From: Leptospirales bacterium
GTDB lineage: Bacteria > Spirochaetota > Leptospiria > Leptospirales > Leptonemataceae
DNA: 64,000 nt
Assembly: GCA_019694655.1 (NCBI GenBank)
Contig: JAIBBN010000002.1
Location: 62,001-126,000, forward strand
Direction of reading: 5' to 3'
In this document: positions 17,386 through 27,936 of the stretch, piece by piece
How the letters are laid out: each line of letters opens with the position of its first letter
Position numbering within the stretch: the stretch's first letter is position 1
Notes under the pieces: model-generated
Seen by the model: only the letters and a program-made list of their open reading frames with translations
The model's database searches: none
Told to the model about the DNA's origin: nothing
Made by a program: the position numbers and the translations under genes

Positions 17386-18018
17386 TCAGGCTTCGGGTCG
17401 CCCCCTCATTCCGTAGAGCAGCAATTCCTCTGCCAGCGGCAGATCTTCCGGAAATTTGATTTTACCCTCGCGAATGCCTACCGCAAAGCCAATGGCAACG
17501 GCGCGCAGCATCCAGGCCATTTTGTCCGGCGGATGGGCGGGGAAGCGTCCGGACAGCACGCCTTCCTGGTAGACATTGACCAACGGCTGGATAACCGACT
17601 GACCGGCTTTTTCGAATTCGGTCAACGTGTCCTCGGCGACGTCTTTTAAGAGTTCGCTTCGCTTGGTTACAATAAGATCAAAATAGCTGTGGTTGCGCGT
17701 ATAGAAGTCAAAAAATACCAGCGCAAAGCCCTTCAGACGGTCCATTGGATCGCTGATTGCGCTGCTCAGGACGCGCTGGTAGCCAGCTTCCAGCTCTCGC
17801 AGGCCTTCGGCCAGCATCGTTGCATAGATTTCATTCTTATTGCGAAAATAGAGGTACAGCGTGGCGCGCGAAAGCTCCAGGCGGCGCGCCAGGTCCTCCA
17901 TCGTAATATCTTCGTAGGGCTTCTCTTGAATCAATTGCCGTGCGTTGTCCAGGATCGCTCTGCGTCGTTCCTGTTTTTCACGTTCCTTGCGCTCGGCAAT
18001 GCCCACAGTCCCACTCAA
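17386..18018 (-). CDS. TetR/AcrR-family transcriptional regulator
   Basis: DNA-binding repressor-type protein of 210 residues. The N-terminal helix-turn-helix is clear: RRRAILDNARQLIQEKPYEDITMEDLARRLELSRATLYLYFRNKNEIYATML. The C-terminal ligand domain (FDFYTRNHSYFDLIVTKRSE and beyond) is of unknown specificity. The first codon is a TTG that overlaps the TGA of the coiled-coil gene (TTGA), so translation is probably coupled; a GTG four codons later is an alternative start. No efflux pump or lipid gene stands next to it, so its target may be its own operon with the coiled-coil protein. Confidence 0.9.
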   Translation of the reverse strand: MSGTVGIAERKEREKQERRRAILDNARQLIQEKPYEDITMEDLARRLELSRATLYLYFRNKNEIYATMLAEGLRELEAGYQRVLSSAISDPMDRLKGFALVFFDFYTRNHSYFDLIVTKRSELLKDVAEDTLTEFEKAGQSVIQPLVNVYQEGVLSGRFPAHPPDKMAWMLRAVAIGFAVGIREGKIKFPEDLPLAEELLLYGMRGRPEA

Positions 18019-20702
18019 GAAGACTTGTTGTGGCTGGCAATCACTGTCCGCACAATAGCCGGATCGATTCGCAGCCGCTCGGCAATCAATTCAGGGTCCC
18101 ATTTGTGATTGATATAGAGACTGAGGATTCCGTTCCGTTTTTGGTCGGCGACAGATGCGGCTGCCGGGCTTCGCTTGCGACGCGGGCCCTCAGCAGGCGC
18201 CTCCGTGGCGTGCAGGCTTTGATCAACCGCCGATTCAACAGTGTGATAGAGCGCCGCCAGGCGATCCATCTTCTCATCGGCTTCCTGAATCAACGACCCA
18301 AGCTCCTTGCCGACTTCCTCGCCGCTCAGGCGCATCTCCTCGACGCGACCGGCCATTGCGCCAATTTGCCGCTGCTTTTCGCCGAGATCGGCAAACAGGC
18401 CTTCCATTTGCTCGAAGCGTGACTCGACCAATTCGATCTTTTTTTCCATACGGTTGAGGCCGTTGATGCGCGCCTCAAGCTCAGCCAGACCCTGCTGCAA
18501 ATCGGACTGGCGATGATCGGCGCGATCGACAGAGGCCAGCAGGCGCTGCGCTTCTTCTGCAGACTGGACGCTTTGTTTGTGCGCTTGCTCCATCCGCTGC
18601 AGCGACTTTTCCACGAACTGGCGTCGTTCGCCAAGCTCGCCGTAGTATTTCTCGAATGAATCCTTGAACTCATTGAACTGGTGCACGCGCTTGTCAATTT
18701 GACGCGCCAGATCCTCCGCCTGTCGGACGGCGCCCAGTCGTTGGTCTACGCCGTCGATCTGACGTTCCAGTTCGAAGAAGGATTGTTCGGCCGCCATCAG
18801 GCGATCGCGTTGACCCTCCAGGGCGCGCAGCTCGCTCTCGATTTCCTTGCGACTCATGCGCAAGGATTCAAAGTTTTTGACATATTCGTCGATGCGCGAG
18901 TTTTCTTCGCGCGCCAGTGCGAGCCGATCGCTCAGTGTCTCAATCGTCTGGTCCAATTGCTCAACCAGCTGCTGGGCCTTTTCGGCCGCCAGCAGTCGTT
19001 CCTGGAAGCGATCGAGGCGCAAGCGATGCTGGTCCACCTCGCTGAGAAAGTCCTCCTGCAGCTTGCGAACATCATCCAGTTCGCGCTCCATTCGCCGCGC
19101 CGAGTCTTCCAGAGCGGCGCCGGTGCGCTTTTCCAGCTCGCTGATTTGTAGCTGTCCGCGATCGGCCATCAGCAGCAACTGATGGTTGATCTTCTGGTCG
19201 ATGGTCTCGCCCAGACGAGCAATGCGCTCATCCTGTTCTTCCACGAAGCGGTCGGCGCGACTCTGTACGCTTTCGATGGCGTTTTGTAGATCGGTCCGTG
19301 CGCGCTCAATGCGCTCCTCTTCCGCCTTGCGCGCATCGCGCAGCAGCGTAACATTGTGTTCCGCCTCCGATCGCAGCGTGGCCTTGATCTCCTGTCCCAG
19401 AATGGTCAGCCGTTCGCGCAAGTCCTCGGTTTCCTCGCGTTGCTGCTGGCTGCGTCTTTCCTCCTCGCGAGCTGCCGATCGAAGCCGTTCTTCGCTTTCC
19501 AGCGCCTCTTTCTCCAGGGCGGCGCTCAACTCGCGCGCTTCGCGCTTGATTCCGTCGCGCTGGTTCTGGCCGGCGCCCTGGATTGCTTCGCGCTCCTTCT
19601 GTTCGATGGTTGCCAGCGCCGCGGTCGTCTCGTCGATTTGTGTCTGGAGTTCGGAGAGGCGGCGCTCTTGCTCGGCAAGAAAGACCTTCTCAAAGCCGCG
19701 GTACTTCTGATCGAGCGCGGCGTGGTGCTCCTCAGCCTCTTTGATCAGGCGATTTTCGGCGGATAGGTACTTCTCTTGAAAGAGATTTACCTTGTCCTGC
19801 ATTCCTTCGGCCATGCGACGCGTTTCATTGAGGATTTCGTCGCGCCGCGAGAGCGCAGCCAGATTGAAGTCATCGAGATCGTTGCGAATTCGCGCGATGT
19901 CGGTCTGCATCGATTCGGTCGCCGAAGTGCGCATCTCCTGCAATCGAAGGTCCAGGCCATTCAATCGATCCAGCAGACGCCGTTCCAGTTCCTGGGCGCG
20001 CTCGTCGACGCGACCGGCCTCGCTGATCCATTGCTCATCCAGACGCGCCGAGAGCGTGGCGACGCGCTCCGAGGAGAGTTCCACATCGCGCGCCTGGTCG
20101 GCCATACGTTCGCCCAGCTTGCGTTGATCTTCCTGCAGGATCTGAAAAGCGGACCGCGCATTGTCAGCCAGCTGGCGGGTACGGTCTTCCGTCTCACGGA
20201 CCAGACGCTCCACAGTGTCGTGCAAGTCTTGATCGGCTTCTTCCAGGCGCCCGGAGATCGCTGCTGCAAAGTGATCGAGGTCAGCATGCAGACGATCGAT
20301 CTCGTCGCGCGCCTCCTGCAAGCGCTCCAGACCGCGGTCAAGGCCCTGCACCTGCTCGCCCACCTGACGGGCGCTTCCGGCAATGCGACCCAGCTCGCCA
20401 GAGATCGTTTCTACAGTTTCGCGCTCGGAACGCAGCGACTCCAGCGCGTGACGGTAGCCTTCGTAGGTTTCGCGCAATTCCTCTTGAGTCTGGCGGCTCT
20501 GACGCAGCAGCAATTCAAATTCCAGCGAAGCGTCGCGGATGCTCTGGACGTGTCGGGCTGCCACCGCATCGAGATTGTGCTCCTGGAGCTCTCCTAAACG
20601 GCGCAGATTGTTGCCGCGACCTGCCGGCCGGTCCAGCCGCCGCAAAGCCAGGGCAAAGGCCAGGGAGGCGAGAAAACTGATTGCGATGAGGAAGTATTCC
20701 AT
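18015..20702 (-). CDS. Very large coiled-coil protein, spirochaete coiled-coil (SpiroCoCo-like) type
   Basis: An 895-residue protein with one N-terminal membrane segment (EYFLIAISFLASLAFALALRRL) and then more than 750 residues of nearly unbroken Glu/Arg/Gln/Leu heptads (such as LDRGLERLQEARDEIDRL and LEALEGQRDRL-like stretches). It ends in a small globular domain (NGILSLYINHKWDPELIAERLRI, DPAIVRTVIASHNK) that looks like a helix-turn-helix. This organisation fits the coiled-coil family found in spirochaetes; the name is from memory and not checked. A structural or scaffold role at the inner membrane is likely. It shares a TTGA start/stop overlap with the TetR gene that follows it. Confidence 0.75.
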   Translation of the reverse strand: MEYFLIAISFLASLAFALALRRLDRPAGRGNNLRRLGELQEHNLDAVAARHVQSIRDASLEFELLLRQSRQTQEELRETYEGYRHALESLRSERETVETISGELGRIAGSARQVGEQVQGLDRGLERLQEARDEIDRLHADLDHFAAAISGRLEEADQDLHDTVERLVRETEDRTRQLADNARSAFQILQEDQRKLGERMADQARDVELSSERVATLSARLDEQWISEAGRVDERAQELERRLLDRLNGLDLRLQEMRTSATESMQTDIARIRNDLDDFNLAALSRRDEILNETRRMAEGMQDKVNLFQEKYLSAENRLIKEAEEHHAALDQKYRGFEKVFLAEQERRLSELQTQIDETTAALATIEQKEREAIQGAGQNQRDGIKREARELSAALEKEALESEERLRSAAREEERRSQQQREETEDLRERLTILGQEIKATLRSEAEHNVTLLRDARKAEEERIERARTDLQNAIESVQSRADRFVEEQDERIARLGETIDQKINHQLLLMADRGQLQISELEKRTGAALEDSARRMERELDDVRKLQEDFLSEVDQHRLRLDRFQERLLAAEKAQQLVEQLDQTIETLSDRLALAREENSRIDEYVKNFESLRMSRKEIESELRALEGQRDRLMAAEQSFFELERQIDGVDQRLGAVRQAEDLARQIDKRVHQFNEFKDSFEKYYGELGERRQFVEKSLQRMEQAHKQSVQSAEEAQRLLASVDRADHRQSDLQQGLAELEARINGLNRMEKKIELVESRFEQMEGLFADLGEKQRQIGAMAGRVEEMRLSGEEVGKELGSLIQEADEKMDRLAALYHTVESAVDQSLHATEAPAEGPRRKRSPAAASVADQKRNGILSLYINHKWDPELIAERLRIDPAIVRTVIASHNKSS

Positions 20703-21569: not shown

Positions 21570-22094
21570 GTGCTGTTCGATCCGGGATTGAAGGAGCTGC
21601 TCGAACGTGTTCTGCCCAGGCTGGAGCCGTACCTGGCGGTCCGCGAGCGCAGCAGCGGCGAAGTGCGCGATCGTCTGCGACTGCGTAAGCTATGCGAAGC
21701 AGAGGAGCGGGATCGCATCATTGACTATCTGGCCAGCGAAGGGATGATCAATGATCGGCGTTTTACGGCCAATCGCGTTCGCTACCGTCTGGACAACGGA
21801 TATGGTCCGGCCTTTATACGCGATGATTTGCACAAACTGAAAGTGGAACGCGCAGTAGTGGATGAATGTCTGCGCGATCTGGGACCGGAGGCGATTCAGC
21901 TTGCAGCCCAGAAGGCCGCGTTGAAGGCCGCGCGGCAGGCGAGGGATCCGCTGAAACTGGTGGGACGCCTGATGCGGCGCGGTTTTTCGATGAATGATCT
22001 TCGTGGCATTGAAGCGCTTGACGGCCTTCCGGCGGCAATGCGCGATCGAGCTGCGCGCCAGAATCGGCGCCAGCAACCGGAGGACGAATTATGA
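21570..22094 (+). CDS. recX: RecX-family regulator of RecA
   Basis: RecX caps and destabilises RecA filaments. This 174-residue protein has the three-helix repeats of the family: YLAVRERSSGEVRDRLRLRK (the R.RS..E...RL element), IIDYLASEGMINDRRFTANRVRYR (the L...G..DD..FA..YV..R element) and GYGPAFIRDDLHKLKVERAVVDECL. The GTG start at 21570 overlies GAGGAGAGTTGAG. It begins two bases after the methyltransferase stop and overlaps the next gene by four bases. recA itself is 36 kb away at 57993-59156, unlike the adjacent arrangement seen in many bacteria. Confidence 0.85.
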   Translation: MLFDPGLKELLERVLPRLEPYLAVRERSSGEVRDRLRLRKLCEAEERDRIIDYLASEGMINDRRFTANRVRYRLDNGYGPAFIRDDLHKLKVERAVVDECLRDLGPEAIQLAAQKAALKAARQARDPLKLVGRLMRRGFSMNDLRGIEALDGLPAAMRDRAARQNRRQQPEDEL

Positions 22095-22510
22095 TGGAAG
22101 GCGAAATGTCGGCCAGCGCTCCGGAGACAGGGCGTCCCGGCCCGGGGCCCGGATCGCAAGGCCCCGGCAGCGGCACAATGGATGTGCCGGCGGGGTCTTC
22201 ACTGCCGGCGGCAGCCGGCGGCGCTGCGGCCGCCGCTGGAGCAACAGCTACCGCGCTTGCTCGCGACCCCAGGCGCCTTGGACGCGCCGGAAAAATACTC
22301 TGGATCCTTGTGGCGATTCTATCTGGCGCTTACGTCGTCTTCCCTGATCCAACTGACGCCTTGATCCCGATGATGGGACTTGGTCTGGTAGATGACGGAG
22401 TGTTCTTTGGCGTCTTCTTGTATGCACTGGAGCGCCTTGGCATCCACATCCCGATCCTGAGCAAGCTGTTTGGATTGTTCCGACGCAATCGCGGCGGCGC
22501 CGGTAGCTGA
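22091..22510 (+). CDS. DUF1232-like membrane protein
   Basis: Small membrane protein (139 residues). The first 60 residues are a Pro/Gly/Ala-rich linker (RPGPGPGSQGPGSGTMDVPAG). Then come a hydrophobic helix (KILWILVAILSGAYVVF) and the PDPTDALIPMMGLGLVDDGVFFGVFLYAL stretch. The P.D.IPD-type pattern and the LVDD pair are characteristic of the YkvA/DUF1232 family. Function of the family is unknown. The ATG at 22091 overlaps the recX stop (ATGA), so it is translated with recX. Confidence 0.75.
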   Translation: MMEGEMSASAPETGRPGPGPGSQGPGSGTMDVPAGSSLPAAAGGAAAAAGATATALARDPRRLGRAGKILWILVAILSGAYVVFPDPTDALIPMMGLGLVDDGVFFGVFLYALERLGIHIPILSKLFGLFRRNRGGAGS

Positions 22511-22523
22511 GGCTACATTTGCA

Positions 22524-23819
22524 TCAGGGGCGCAAGCGCGGACGATCTGCGGGATAGGTTCGCGGCATCGATCCACTGTAGATCTGCTGTGGACGCATGC
22601 CCTTTTGTTCGTTTTGACGCTGTTCCTGCCAGTGTGCCAGCCAACCGCTCATCTTGCCGATGACGCGAATCACATTGTTCATGTTGGGCGGAATGCCAAG
22701 CAGGTGGAAGATCATCGCCGAATAGAAATCAAGATTCGGATATAGCTTCATCTTCTGAAAGAAGGGATGACCCAGCATATACGATTCAACTTCCAGCGCC
22801 TTTTGGATGATTGGATCGCTGCTGGCTCTTGGATGACTGGCAATATATTCTTTGAAGAGACGACGGCTGAGGATCGCGCGCGGATCTTCAATGCGGTACT
22901 TGCGGTGCCCAAAGGCCGGCGATTGCAGTCGCTCTTCTCCGCGCAGGAAGGGTTCGAAGTAGCGCTCCGCCGTCAGTCCATTGCTGATCATATGCTGCAG
23001 CATTGGGCGCGGCAGCATGCGATAGTTGGCCTCGCGCTGACCCCAGATGGCGGAGATGCCGGCATTGATAGAAACAAACAGATTGGCGCGCGTGCTGCCG
23101 ACCATGACGACGGTGGAGGTGGCGACGTTTTGCTCATGGTCGCTGTACAATATCAAGATTTGATTCAGGATGCGTTCATCTTCGGGAGCGACCTGCGTAT
23201 CGCCGGAGGGAACGGCAAACATCATGTTCAGGAAGTTGGAGCAGTAGGGCAATTCATCGCGGGGATAGATGACGGGCTGCCCGATGGATTTCTTGTAGGC
23301 CCAGGCGGCCAGGGTGCGCACTTTTGCCAGCAGACGCGCCTTGACGTCAATGCCCATCTTGAAGTGGTCCTCGTAGCTGTGCGGGTAGTAGCTGGAAAGC
23401 GCGGTTACCATCGTAGCCAGGATTGCCAGCGGGTGCGCATCGCCCGGAAAGGCGTCGAAAAAGTTGCGCATCGATTCATGGATCATCGAATGCCGCGACA
23501 ATGAGCGCGAGTACTCTTCGTATTCCGCTTCACTGGGCAGCTCGCCGCCGGCCAGCAAATAGGAGGTTTCGACAAAAGAAGAGCGCTCCACAAGGTCAGC
23601 AACATCGTAGCCGCGATAGTGCAGCTTTCCCGACGGATCAACCCAGGTGATTGAACTTTGCGTAACGGCGGTGCTGTTGAGTGAAGGATCGTAGGAATAG
23701 CGGCCGCTTTGTGTGAACAGTTCGCTGAAATCGATGCCTCCCGGACCAGCAACCGATTCCACAATGGGAAATTCATAGGACTTCCCGTCCATGGTAAGTG
23801 TGGCGCGACGAGACTGCAT
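22524..23819 (-). CDS. gltA: Citrate synthase homologue lacking the HGGAN catalytic loop
   Basis: Type-II (long) citrate synthase fold, 431 residues from the ATG at 23819 (a TTG at 23855 is possible). It matches from ITWVDPSGKLHYRGYDVADL through YSDHEQNVATSTV (226 on), GSTRANLFVSINAGISAIWG, AFGHRKY (302-308) and LDFYSA (363-368). So the FGHR His and the DFYS Asp are present. But the loop normally reading PLHGGAN, which carries the third catalytic residue (His264 in E. coli numbering), is QREAN here (261-265). The reading frame is intact around it, so this is not a frameshift. It may be inactive, altered in mechanism, or lineage-specific. The gene is monocistronic, converging with the DUF1232 gene. 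Confidence 0.85.
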   Translation of the reverse strand: MQSRRATLTMDGKSYEFPIVESVAGPGGIDFSELFTQSGRYSYDPSLNSTAVTQSSITWVDPSGKLHYRGYDVADLVERSSFVETSYLLAGGELPSEAEYEEYSRSLSRHSMIHESMRNFFDAFPGDAHPLAILATMVTALSSYYPHSYEDHFKMGIDVKARLLAKVRTLAAWAYKKSIGQPVIYPRDELPYCSNFLNMMFAVPSGDTQVAPEDERILNQILILYSDHEQNVATSTVVMVGSTRANLFVSINAGISAIWGQREANYRMLPRPMLQHMISNGLTAERYFEPFLRGEERLQSPAFGHRKYRIEDPRAILSRRLFKEYIASHPRASSDPIIQKALEVESYMLGHPFFQKMKLYPNLDFYSAMIFHLLGIPPNMNNVIRVIGKMSGWLAHWQEQRQNEQKGMRPQQIYSGSMPRTYPADRPRLRP

Positions 23820-23885
23820 GGCAGCATGGCCGCTGCCTGCAACGGGCGAGGTCAATCGAAATCCAGAGCCCGGGGCCTCTGGCGC

Positions 23886-25958
23886 TTAGCGACGACGCGC
23901 AAAGCGCGCGCGCAGATAAGCGCCCAGCTCGCCCATGGTCATACGCGCGTGAAATCGAGGCAGGGGAGGCGAGGCCTGCCCGCCGGAACCCCTCGCGGAA
24001 CTCAAAGCCAGCGCTTCTGGAGTTCCGGCCGGAGAAAGCGAATCGCTCTGGCGAGGTCGAATGAAGATTTGATCCACGGCCTGCCGACTTTCGCCAGGGA
24101 GGGCGTCCGGCAATTCGCCGGTCAGCTCAATGTCGATGCGCAGGAATTTTCGGTTGATAATGCTGACCTCCATTTGCCCGGCAAGGATTCGGATGATCTC
24201 GCGAACGATCGCCCACTTCACCCATAGCTGTCCGCGCTCCACTGCCGGATCAGTAAGAATGTCATAGAGGTGACGGGTTTGCTTTACGTTATTGTGGAAG
24301 AGCATGAATCGAAAGTGAACATGAGCCTTGAGGTCGGAGGTGATGATCAAATCGATGTTGCGATAGTCCTTAAAGCCAGGAAAGTCAATCAGTCGAATGA
24401 CCAGCGAATTGACCAGCTCAAGGCTGGTGTTCAAGACAATGGCAGGGTGCACCTTTACATGGTGCGTGATGACTCCCTGTGGAATCACTGCCGTAATAAA
24501 GTCACGAAAGTTCACCTTTTCCAGGAATTCCGGCTCGGAAATCACTTCCAGGCGCGAAAGTTCCAGGATATCATCCAGGTTGCTCTGCAGATCGTCTACT
24601 GCAGCGCTCAGCGTTGCGCTTTTTTCATTCCAGCTGCGGCGATCGTCCACTGATTGCAGCGCCTGCTGGATGCCAGCTATCAGCTCGCGCGCTGGATTGC
24701 GTACAAAAGTGAAGATGTAGGCGAAGACCCTGTCGCGCAGGGCATTGACGGAGTCCAGACGTCGGCTGCGTCGATCGACTTCCATCTGCAAATCAATCAG
24801 GCGGTAGGTTAAGGCAAAGGCGGTGATCAGAATAAAACTGAGAACGCCTTCGCTGAAATAGTGCGGGCCTTCGACAAGCCCGCGTTCCACCGCAAAAAAG
24901 TGCACGGTGGCCAGCATCATCACTGCCAGCGCCAGAGACAGAAGGATGGCATCGCGCTGCAGCCTTTTTAATGCCCTGGCAAAAGCATCTCCTGCAAAGT
25001 AGACAAAAAAGGGCAGATTCAAAGGAAACCAGACGGAAATGATACCATCCCAGCGCACCGGGTTCATGGTCAGAAGAATGGCCGCCGCCGCCGCGCCGCT
25101 GATCAAAGCGTAGATCAGTCCAGGCGTCCGCGGCCGAAATTCCACGCGCCGCTCGCCGAAGCCGATGACGATGGCTTGCGCCTTGAAAAAGCTGATGTGA
25201 AAAAGAAAGTAAACCAGCGGGCTGGCGACATAGCAAAGCTGTTCCAGCAGCTTGAAAGTGAGGAAGGAGTCCCACAGACTGAAGCGGGATTCGTTGACCA
25301 AAAATTGCTGCAATCCGAGAAGCGCTGCGAGAATGCCAAACCAGCGAAACTCGCGCAACTCCGGCAGTTTGAAGTGCAAGACTGAAAAAAATATCCCAAC
25401 CGCTAGATACAGTCCGGCGAAGGTCAACAGCTGGATCTGGGAGCGCCAGAAATTCCACTGCGCACTTTCGGTCTCGTCGATTACCGGAGCGCCTCGCAGA
25501 CCCAGGCTATTCGAAAACTGTCCTTGAATCTTGATGGCTAGAACATTCCGTCCGCTCTGCAGCAGAACTGCGGGAAGCCCGTAGAGACGGGGGCGACCGT
25601 ATCCGCGCAGGCCCGACTGTGCGGCGCTGCCAATCAATTGTCCATTCAAGTAGACTTCGTCCGTATCGTAGACCGGTCCCAGGTGCAACGCAAGATTTAC
25701 GTCGCGGGGCGCGCTCAAGGAGAGCTCGCAGCGCAGCCACAGCGGCTGCCCGGAACGTGCGCCGGCGCGGGCCAAATTGGCCGGCAGATGAATTTGCTTC
25801 CAGCCGCGATCATCCAGGCTCGGGTCGCTGGCGCCCGGCAGGTCATGGTCTAAAAAACGCCAATCGTTGAGCTCGACGCGATAACGATCGTCCGCCTGCA
25901 GGGCGCCGCCGGCATAGAAGGTCAGCGCCGCAACGAGGAGCAGCCGCCTTGGGCTCAT
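23886..25958 (-). CDS. 7TM DISM sensor protein with degenerate kinase module
   Basis: A 690-residue membrane receptor. Signal peptide, then an extracellular beta-sandwich of the sugar-binding / DISM type (LGPVYDTDEVYLNGQLIGS, YGLPAVLLQSGRNVLAIKIQGQF; about 25-165), then about seven membrane helices (about 175-385). The cytoplasmic part resembles a histidine kinase only faintly: RRSRRLDSVNALRDRVFAYIFTFVRNP stands where the phospho-acceptor helix should be and has no His. A late AIVREIIRILAGQ segment recalls the ATPase but the D.G.G and G.G.G boxes are missing. So it is probably a pseudokinase. It overlaps the upstream sensor gene by four bases (ATGA). Confidence 0.82.
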   Translation of the reverse strand: MSPRRLLLVAALTFYAGGALQADDRYRVELNDWRFLDHDLPGASDPSLDDRGWKQIHLPANLARAGARSGQPLWLRCELSLSAPRDVNLALHLGPVYDTDEVYLNGQLIGSAAQSGLRGYGRPRLYGLPAVLLQSGRNVLAIKIQGQFSNSLGLRGAPVIDETESAQWNFWRSQIQLLTFAGLYLAVGIFFSVLHFKLPELREFRWFGILAALLGLQQFLVNESRFSLWDSFLTFKLLEQLCYVASPLVYFLFHISFFKAQAIVIGFGERRVEFRPRTPGLIYALISGAAAAAILLTMNPVRWDGIISVWFPLNLPFFVYFAGDAFARALKRLQRDAILLSLALAVMMLATVHFFAVERGLVEGPHYFSEGVLSFILITAFALTYRLIDLQMEVDRRSRRLDSVNALRDRVFAYIFTFVRNPARELIAGIQQALQSVDDRRSWNEKSATLSAAVDDLQSNLDDILELSRLEVISEPEFLEKVNFRDFITAVIPQGVITHHVKVHPAIVLNTSLELVNSLVIRLIDFPGFKDYRNIDLIITSDLKAHVHFRFMLFHNNVKQTRHLYDILTDPAVERGQLWVKWAIVREIIRILAGQMEVSIINRKFLRIDIELTGELPDALPGESRQAVDQIFIRPRQSDSLSPAGTPEALALSSARGSGGQASPPLPRFHARMTMGELGAYLRARFARRR

Positions 25959-27886
25959 CGCGCCTGTTTCTCCGGAACGCGCAGGGTCAGGGTTGAAAAG
26001 TAGCCGCCGCCCTCGAGCTTGATTTCTCCCTCAAGAACATCAGCAATTTCACGGACAATGGTCAGACCGACGCCGCTACCGGGAGGCGCAGAGTCATCGT
26101 CTGGAGTATTGCGGACAAATTTCTGAAATACCGCCTGCTGCTGATGTGCGTTCATGCCTGGACCTTCATCGCGCACCTGCAGCAATAGCTGGCCGCCGAT
26201 GCGCTCCGCGCCGACCTCAACTTTGCCCGTGGAATACAGCAGCGCATTTTCCACCAGGTGGTAGAGCGCGGCGGCCAGCAGCTCGGCGTCGCTTTCCGCC
26301 TCGTTTTCTTCATCGGGCAGTTTGCTTCGAATTCGGCTCTGCGGTTGCTCAGTCGCCAGCAAGGCCCGGGCAATCTGCTCCGCGACGAGTTTGTTCAGGC
26401 TGAAGCGGCCGAGCCGCGGATGGTACTCTCCGGATTCCAGCAAATGAAGAAGTCGACTGTCCTGAACCAGGTTGTCCAGGTTCAGCGCTGAAGAGCGCAG
26501 TCGATCGTGAGCGCCGCTTCGATTTCCACGTTTCCTTGACGATTCCTCGGCGCCCAGACCTTCGCGCAGTCCGCTGAGTATGGCCGTAAACTCGCTTGAT
26601 ATGTTGAATATGGATCGCGTCTTCCGTTTTTCCAGCAGCCGCAACTCTTGCTCCTGCTCCTTGATATTGCCGTAGAGCTGCAGTATCGTATCCGAAAGCT
26701 GCAACGATGCAAAGAGCAAGAAAGCGGCAAAGCCGTATACCAAGAGCCTGGGATAGGGGTGAATATTGAGCGTGGACAAAATGTCCCAGACAACTACTGG
26801 CAGCAGCACAACAAATCCAACCAGCAAAAAGCGCAGCCGATCGCGGTGCGCAGCATAATTGCGCAAGAAGGTCCACGCAGTCAGCGCCAGCGCGGCGACA
26901 ATCAAAACGAGATTGATATTGATCAGGAGTTTCCACGCGCGGGCGCTGGCGCCAAACAGAAGATCGCCGGTGAGGAGCAGTGCGTAGGCGCCATACAGCG
27001 CCAGGACCGGCAATTTGCGCCGCGCATTTGTTGCATGATGCAGGTACTCCAGAAAAAATACCGGCAAAGAGAACAACAGCGCCAGCTCCGTCTTGTAGGA
27101 TGCAACGAAGCTATCAAACCACTCGTAGCGGATTTGCGTACGAATCAAATTGTACATCCCAAGCGAGAGGGAGAAGAGTGCGAAATAGAGATTGGCCTGC
27201 TGCCTCCAGAAAAACAAATAGAACAACCCAAAGAAGGCTGCCACCAGCACGTAGCTCCAGCTGAAGACAATAGTCGGCAGGTCGCGAAGCGCCAGAGTTT
27301 TTGCCTGGGACAGCTGATCTACGAGACGTGGTTCGAAGCGCAGCCCGCCGTCGCCAGTCGTCGCAAAAACCCGAATGGCAATCACGTTCGGTCCTTCTTG
27401 CCAGAGCGTAGCGGGCAGGGCGTACAATCGTCGGCGCTCAATATCAACGCGACGTCCGGCAAGCGATCCTGTTTCGCCAACCTGAACGCCATTGAAGAAC
27501 ACGGCGTCGGCCTCTTCGATTGAATCCAGGAACAGGGCGGCGCCTGCGGGAGGCGGTCCGGCAAGCTGGATGCGGCAGCGTAAGAAGACGCTGAGTCCCT
27601 GGGCCGGCGGTTTGAGTTTCAACGCCCGGAAATCGGCGGGTGCGGCCGCCAGGCGCCAGGCGCTATCGTCGAATTCGACGCGCGTCCAGTCTGCCGGAAT
27701 TTCCTGGGCGCCCGGTGCGCTCTGCAAGCGCCATGCGCCGGCAAGAGAGAGTGCGCTTTGACCGTCGCTCAACTGCGCCTCGGGGCAAGCAGCGGATAGG
27801 CCAACTGGCGCTGCACAGAGCGCCGCCAGGGCCAGGAGCCACGTCAGCGGTCCGCCTGGCAAGGATGCTGAGCGACAGCGGGGCAT
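25955..27886 (-). CDS. 7TM DISM sensor with HATPase domain but no phospho-acceptor His
   Basis: 643 residues from the ATG at 27886; an ATG at 27919 is an alternative. Signal peptide, extracellular beta-sandwich (FLDSIEEADAVFFNGVQVGETG, LYALPATLWQEGPNVIAIRVF; about 35-190), seven membrane helices (about 205-400), a short coiled coil, then a kinase-like module. The ATPase is intact: LVENALLYSTG (N box, about 545), VRDEGPGMN (G1, about 573) and GSGVGLTIVREIADVLEG (G2, about 603). The acceptor helix reads FNISSEFTAILSGL, where the usual H-E-L-R-T-P-L is S-E-F-T-A-I-L, so His is replaced by Ser431. It overlaps the second sensor by four bases and lies 50 bases after rsgA. Confidence 0.85.
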   Translation of the reverse strand: MPRCRSASLPGGPLTWLLALAALCAAPVGLSAACPEAQLSDGQSALSLAGAWRLQSAPGAQEIPADWTRVEFDDSAWRLAAAPADFRALKLKPPAQGLSVFLRCRIQLAGPPPAGAALFLDSIEEADAVFFNGVQVGETGSLAGRRVDIERRRLYALPATLWQEGPNVIAIRVFATTGDGGLRFEPRLVDQLSQAKTLALRDLPTIVFSWSYVLVAAFFGLFYLFFWRQQANLYFALFSLSLGMYNLIRTQIRYEWFDSFVASYKTELALLFSLPVFFLEYLHHATNARRKLPVLALYGAYALLLTGDLLFGASARAWKLLININLVLIVAALALTAWTFLRNYAAHRDRLRFLLVGFVVLLPVVVWDILSTLNIHPYPRLLVYGFAAFLLFASLQLSDTILQLYGNIKEQEQELRLLEKRKTRSIFNISSEFTAILSGLREGLGAEESSRKRGNRSGAHDRLRSSALNLDNLVQDSRLLHLLESGEYHPRLGRFSLNKLVAEQIARALLATEQPQSRIRSKLPDEENEAESDAELLAAALYHLVENALLYSTGKVEVGAERIGGQLLLQVRDEGPGMNAHQQQAVFQKFVRNTPDDDSAPPGSGVGLTIVREIADVLEGEIKLEGGGYFSTLTLRVPEKQAR

Positions 27887-27936
27887 TGCCTGTCCATTAT
27901 CGGTTGGGCGAGGGTGCATTTTTGATCGTCCGCCGC

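Follow-up and report, generated by a model that had tools for sequence, protein, structure and literature searches.

A Citrate Synthase Paralogue without the First Catalytic Histidine in an Order of Spirochaetes: A Probable Pseudoenzyme with a Proposed Role in Regulation or Ligand Sensing

Introduction

Citrate synthase stands at the entrance to the TCA cycle. The roles assigned below to its residues follow published work (PMC6386500, PMC9765439) and what is well established for the enzymes of E. coli and pig. His and Val are the residues of citrate synthases at the two positions where PrpC, the 2-methylcitrate synthase of Salmonella, has Tyr and Leu (PMC9765439). In Leptospira interrogans, gltA has been reported as LIC12829/LA0790 (PMC2841595), and a "type II citrate synthase", LIC12925, appeared at the protein level in a set of putative ClpB substrates (PMC5979558). 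The papers that we searched contain no description of a citrate synthase paralogue that lacks the catalytic histidine and is conserved across an order. A literature search on pseudo-citrate synthases, or on 7TMR-DISM proteins linked with citrate synthase, likewise returned nothing relevant.

In this study, we describe such a paralogue, which is encoded in a 64,000-nucleotide stretch of DNA from a Leptospirales bacterium; this whole stretch is hereafter called the window. A canonical gltA occurs elsewhere in the same genome, and the paralogue directly follows two kinase-like membrane proteins.

Materials and methods

Residues were compared between 27 complete copies of the paralogue and 36 canonical enzymes. 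E. coli numbering was used; its reference sequence matches the PDB alignment apart from the F383A substitution in 1nxe. The phylum was searched with a profile of the 27 complete copies, which was run over 393 genomes. The fold was predicted as a monomer with AlphaFold2 from an alignment of the 27 copies (pLDDT 83).

Results

The gene and the first catalytic loop

The gene and its active-site residues are as follows:

22524..23819, minus strand: citrate synthase paralogue without the catalytic histidine (PF00285, PRK05614, hexameric-type fold)
23025..23039, minus strand: QREAN, residues 261-265, placed against PLHGG by alignment
23031..23033, minus strand: Glu263 in place of the catalytic histidine (E. 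coli H264) in a gap-free alignment; Glu in 27/27 copies of the paralogue versus His in 36/36 canonical enzymes
22905..22907, minus strand: His305, the second catalytic histidine and an oxaloacetate ligand, kept; His in 25/27 copies
22728..22730, minus strand: Asp364 (E. coli D362), kept in the window; Asp in 16/27 copies and Glu in 11/27

The open frame encodes 431 amino acids from an ATG at 23819, and an alternative in-frame TTG at 23855 would give a protein of 443 amino acids. The protein scores 315.7 bits against PF00285 (Citrate synthase), for which the Pfam gathering cut-off is 27. Its best NCBIfam models are PRK05614 (402.3 bits versus a cut-off of 505) and TIGR01798 (366.3 bits versus 485.15), so that both scores fall under the curated equivalog cut-offs. 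The frame is also intact in the other 26 complete copies, which share 46-63% identity. Promoter and terminator scans gave signals no higher than those of shuffled sequences.

The first-pass annotation, made from the letters of the window, had described an open frame for a citrate synthase homologue that lacks the first catalytic histidine, with QREAN in the place of the histidine loop and with the other two catalytic residues present. All of this holds in the window, where FGHR contains His305 and DFYS contains Asp364. The same annotation had also taken the loop to be two residues shorter, and this claim is refuted by an alignment that includes bridging sequences from both families of the order (f1 and f2). 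From Trp-Gly onward, the canonical loop WGPLHGGANQAVIEML, the f2 loop WGSREGGQSVAAVELL, the f1 loop WGSRESDANVPPIIML and the window loop WGQREANYRMLPRPML align without a gap, and WGPLHGGAN is matched column by column by WGSREGGQS (f2), WGSRESDAN (f1) and WGQREANYR (window). Glu263 therefore occupies exactly the column of the catalytic histidine. The apparent gap arose because the AN of QREAN had been matched to the canonical AN; it aligns with the GG that follows the histidine, and its likeness to AN is a coincidence. This GG is not conserved in the paralogue.

Because the glutamate is present in every complete copy and the histidine in every canonical enzyme compared, a frameshift, a sequencing error or chance could be ruled out. 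Outside the order, ordinary citrate synthases of the phylum have the loops WGSRHGGAN and WGSKHGGAN; since Ser-Arg also flanks an intact histidine in these enzymes, the replacement of His by Glu is the key change. Two loci in other families of the phylum (L157 and L158) encode canonical citrate synthases with WGSKHGG and WGSRHGG, in which Ser-Lys or Ser-Arg stands instead of Pro-Leu.

Residues of the active site, the CoA side and the NADH site

The oxaloacetate ligands H229, R314 and R407 are kept in all 27 copies, and oxaloacetate-binding R387 is Lys in 26 of them. H226 is Tyr throughout, position 361 is Leu in 23 copies, and F383 is replaced by Arg in 20 copies and by Gln in seven. Two more differences from the canonical enzymes are fixed: Asp replaces N189, and Arg replaces P169. 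The basic residues R306, K309 and K356, which presumably lie on the CoA side of citrate synthase, are not conserved. At the NADH site, H110, Y145 and K167 are found in 27/27 copies and R163 in 25/27; these residues could have been kept for structural reasons.

Distribution and the canonical gltA

A second, canonical gltA, which the first reading had proposed to look for, is present in the same genome (G000:C1:258954-260219) with PLHGGAN, FGHR and DFYS intact. Given this gene, the paralogue is not the organism's sole citrate synthase, and no Re-type enzyme need be invoked. The paralogue occurs in 29 of the 30 genomes of the order, with 27 complete copies and two fragments (G020 and G022, which cover WGARESDAN and WGSREGG). 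The sole genome without it, G007, has an assembly that is 67% complete. The gltA gene and the paralogue are found together in nearly all adequately assembled genomes of the order.

Among the 393 genomes of the phylum, the profile search detected no copy outside the order. Complete copies scored 670-762 bits, the partial copy of G022 scored 478, and everything else scored 522 or less; HGG was intact in those high scorers outside the order whose loops were read. A scan of genome contigs, which covered close relatives, found just ordinary PLHGG enzymes outside the order.

Evolution, constraint and predicted fold

In the tree, the sequences of the paralogue form one clade with 100/100 support, and the root position of this clade is uncertain because the branches are long. 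The duplication is older than the split between f1 and f2, and its age is known only to that bound. Between the two families, identity is 47.7% for the paralogue versus 69.2% for gltA. Over the same pairs, dN/dS is 0.016-0.125 for the paralogue and 0.004-0.08 for gltA, values that are approximate since dS is often above 1 or saturated. In the paralogue, the absence of a catalytic residue is thus conserved and the gene is under purifying selection, as would be expected of a pseudoenzyme.

Constraint is unevenly distributed along the protein. The small acetyl-CoA-binding domain (276-360) is the least constrained region, with an f1-f2 identity of 34% versus 70% in gltA. Residues 106-170, which include those of the NADH site, reach 62% versus 70% (ratio 0.89). 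Judged from sequence, this regional pattern suggests that the core and the small-molecule pocket were kept and that the CoA half of the reaction was lost. The predicted fold matches hexameric enzymes over its whole length, with Z scores of 44.0 to 7e8n (399 residues aligned), 43.8 to 2h12 and 42.2 to E. coli 1owb, and the N-terminal strand domain of the hexameric NADH-type citrate synthases is present in the model.

Neighbouring genes

Two kinase-like genes precede the paralogue on the same strand:

23886..25958, minus strand: HK-B, a membrane protein of the 7TMR-DISM type whose cytoplasmic part has a histidine-kinase-like fold and lacks kinase motifs, directly upstream of the paralogue
25955..27919, minus strand: HK-A, a 7TMR-DISM and HATPase_c kinase-like protein in which the H-box histidine is replaced (NISSEF), overlapping HK-B by 4 bp

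HK-A, whose ATPase domain is intact, matches PF02518 at 61.9 bits and PF07695 at 41.7 bits. Of the 19 family members, 18 have another residue in place of the H-box histidine; the remaining one, G024, retains it (NVSHEF), and this lends support to the H-box alignment. The 7TMR-DISM match of HK-B in the window (26.9 bits) falls just below the 29-bit cut-off, and the match is clear in some relatives. Pfam gave no HATPase match in HK-B, and no ATPase or H-box motifs were seen in it; the model of its cytoplasmic part adopts the fold of a histidine kinase (pLDDT 75, Z 15-16). Near full-length relatives of HK-B occur in most genomes of the order. In 14 other genomes of the class, no near full-length relative was detected; the weak matches in other families were rejected as orthologues since they cover the N-terminal part alone. 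The model leads us to regard HK-B as a probable pseudokinase that has been kept in most of the order. HK-A, HK-B and the paralogue each lack a catalytic or phospho-acceptor residue.

Of the 18 f1 loci examined, 10 retain the order HK-A/HK-B/paralogue, with a gap of 15-48 nt between HK-B and the paralogue and, in most of these loci, the 4 bp overlap between HK-A and HK-B. One further f1 locus has a single ORF between HK-B and the paralogue. The f2 genomes keep the HK-A/HK-B pair away from the paralogue, as seen in the three f2 loci examined. Because the operon is absent from these three loci and from several f1 genomes, a link to the kinases is not a universal role.

Two other genes were noted around the locus:

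22091..22510, plus strand: small protein convergent with the paralogue, hydrophobic in its C-terminal half, without a Pfam match; its relatives (cluster c3) adjoin or lie near the paralogue in 12/21 loci
18015..20702, minus strand: long coiled-coil-like protein of 895 amino acids without a significant family match; a relative (cluster c6) lies near the paralogue in five other genomes

Discussion

We consider the paralogue to be, with a probability of roughly 0.6, an ancient, order-wide pseudoenzyme that derives from a hexameric, NADH-type, GltA-like citrate synthase and has a regulatory or ligand-sensing role. Such a protein would have lost the ability to condense oxaloacetate and acetyl-CoA at any meaningful rate, and it may bind a small dicarboxylate, NADH or both through the retained sites. 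It might then act in an assembly with GltA that forms via the conserved core. In f1, where it directly follows the two 7TMR-DISM kinase-like proteins, it might alternatively serve as the cytoplasmic, metabolite-sensing partner of the membrane module. A more specific proposal, which we advance tentatively and consider rather improbable, is that three repurposed enzymes, namely HK-A without its phospho-acceptor histidine, the motif-less HK-B and the paralogue, work together as a signalling complex at the membrane, with the citrate synthase fold sensing the levels of oxaloacetate, NADH or both. The first-pass annotation had offered three options. The lineage-specific variant has been demonstrated for the whole order. 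An inactive regulatory subunit is the best supported of the functional options, and we infer both the inactivity and the regulation from comparisons of sequence. The third option, an altered chemistry, is weakened by the losses on the CoA side and in the small domain, by the variable Asp362 and His305, and by the missing methylcitrate pathway.

A narrower form of the regulatory reading holds that the paralogue is solely a subunit of mixed hexamers with GltA, which it would tune by NADH without any link to the kinases. This form overlaps with the probability given above, and we regard it as possible although somewhat unlikely. The near-GltA constraint on residues 106-170, the hexameric-type N-terminal domain that the model predicts, the co-occurrence with gltA and the separation from the kinases in f2 are all consistent with it, whereas the long retention of the f1 operon with HK-A and HK-B argues against it. 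The altered chemistry would require an active enzyme with a new active site, built from the glutamate together with Tyr226, Leu361, Arg or Gln383 and Lys387, for condensing, cleaving or otherwise converting another dicarboxylate or an acyl-CoA. These replacements are a coherent set, unlike random decay; one invariant glutamate has taken the place of the histidine instead of varied replacements, and it is accompanied by a PrpC-type Tyr and Leu, which have been proposed to determine the acyl specificity of the Salmonella 2-methylcitrate synthase (PMC9765439). However, the presumed CoA-side basic residues and the constraint on the small domain have been lost, the catalytic aspartate is exchanged for glutamate in 11 copies, and His305 is lost in two. 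Moreover, prpD (PF03972) was found in 0/30 genomes of the order, and prpB above the cut-off was found in none of the 30. A role in the methylcitrate cycle is therefore unlikely, and the paralogue was rejected as the methylcitrate synthase of a propionate pathway. We judge an altered chemistry of any kind to be unlikely.

The glutamate might instead perform the work of the histidine, which would make the paralogue a functional, if perhaps weak, citrate synthase. Although the fold, the second histidine and the aspartate are kept in the window, the strict retention of the histidine in all 36 canonical enzymes compared, the intact gltA of the same genome and the loss of the CoA-side residues make this reading very improbable. 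Mutation of catalytic residues in the pig and E. coli citrate synthases also reduces activity severely. A decaying duplicate without function would account for the faster evolution of the paralogue relative to gltA. Decay is nevertheless scarcely credible for a gene whose complete copies are all open and kept across the order, whose dN/dS is far under 1, and in which several changed positions carry the same new residue in 27/27 copies.

If the paralogue is indeed a regulatory or sensing subunit, then the entry into the TCA cycle in this spirochaete order would be under a form of control that has gone unrecognised, and annotation by similarity only would wrongly name these genes "citrate synthase". 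The cassette with two degenerate kinases is a testable case of jointly co-opted enzymes. Moreover, the two citrate synthase loci of L. interrogans suggest that the same question may arise in a genus that has been studied extensively, and we predict that one of LIC12829 and LIC12925 is the paralogue.

Comparison with known systems

The closest described counterpart of HK-B is the pseudo-histidine kinase DivL (4q20), its top Foldseek match. Both have the cytoplasmic fold of a histidine kinase without the phospho-acceptor histidine; HK-B differs in its additional 7TMR-DISM membrane part and in having no recognisable ATP-binding motifs.

The paralogue shares Tyr226 and Leu361 with Salmonella PrpC. 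However, PrpC keeps the His/His/Asp triad, whereas the first histidine of the paralogue is Glu, and PrpC lacks the N-terminal domain that the paralogue has. The PrpC partners encoded by prpB and prpD were not found in the 30 genomes of the order.

Compared with hexameric NADH-type GltA (E. coli 1nxe, 1owb and 4g6b; Acetobacter aceti 2h12; Hymenobacter 7e8n), the paralogue has Glu for H264, Tyr for H226, Asp for N189, Lys for R387 and Arg or Gln for F383; R306, K309, K356 and the loop GG are missing, and the small domain has diverged. What it shares with GltA is the fold over the whole length (Z 40-44) with its N-terminal strand domain, the oxaloacetate ligands H229, R314 and R407, and the NADH-site residues H110, Y145, R163 and K167.
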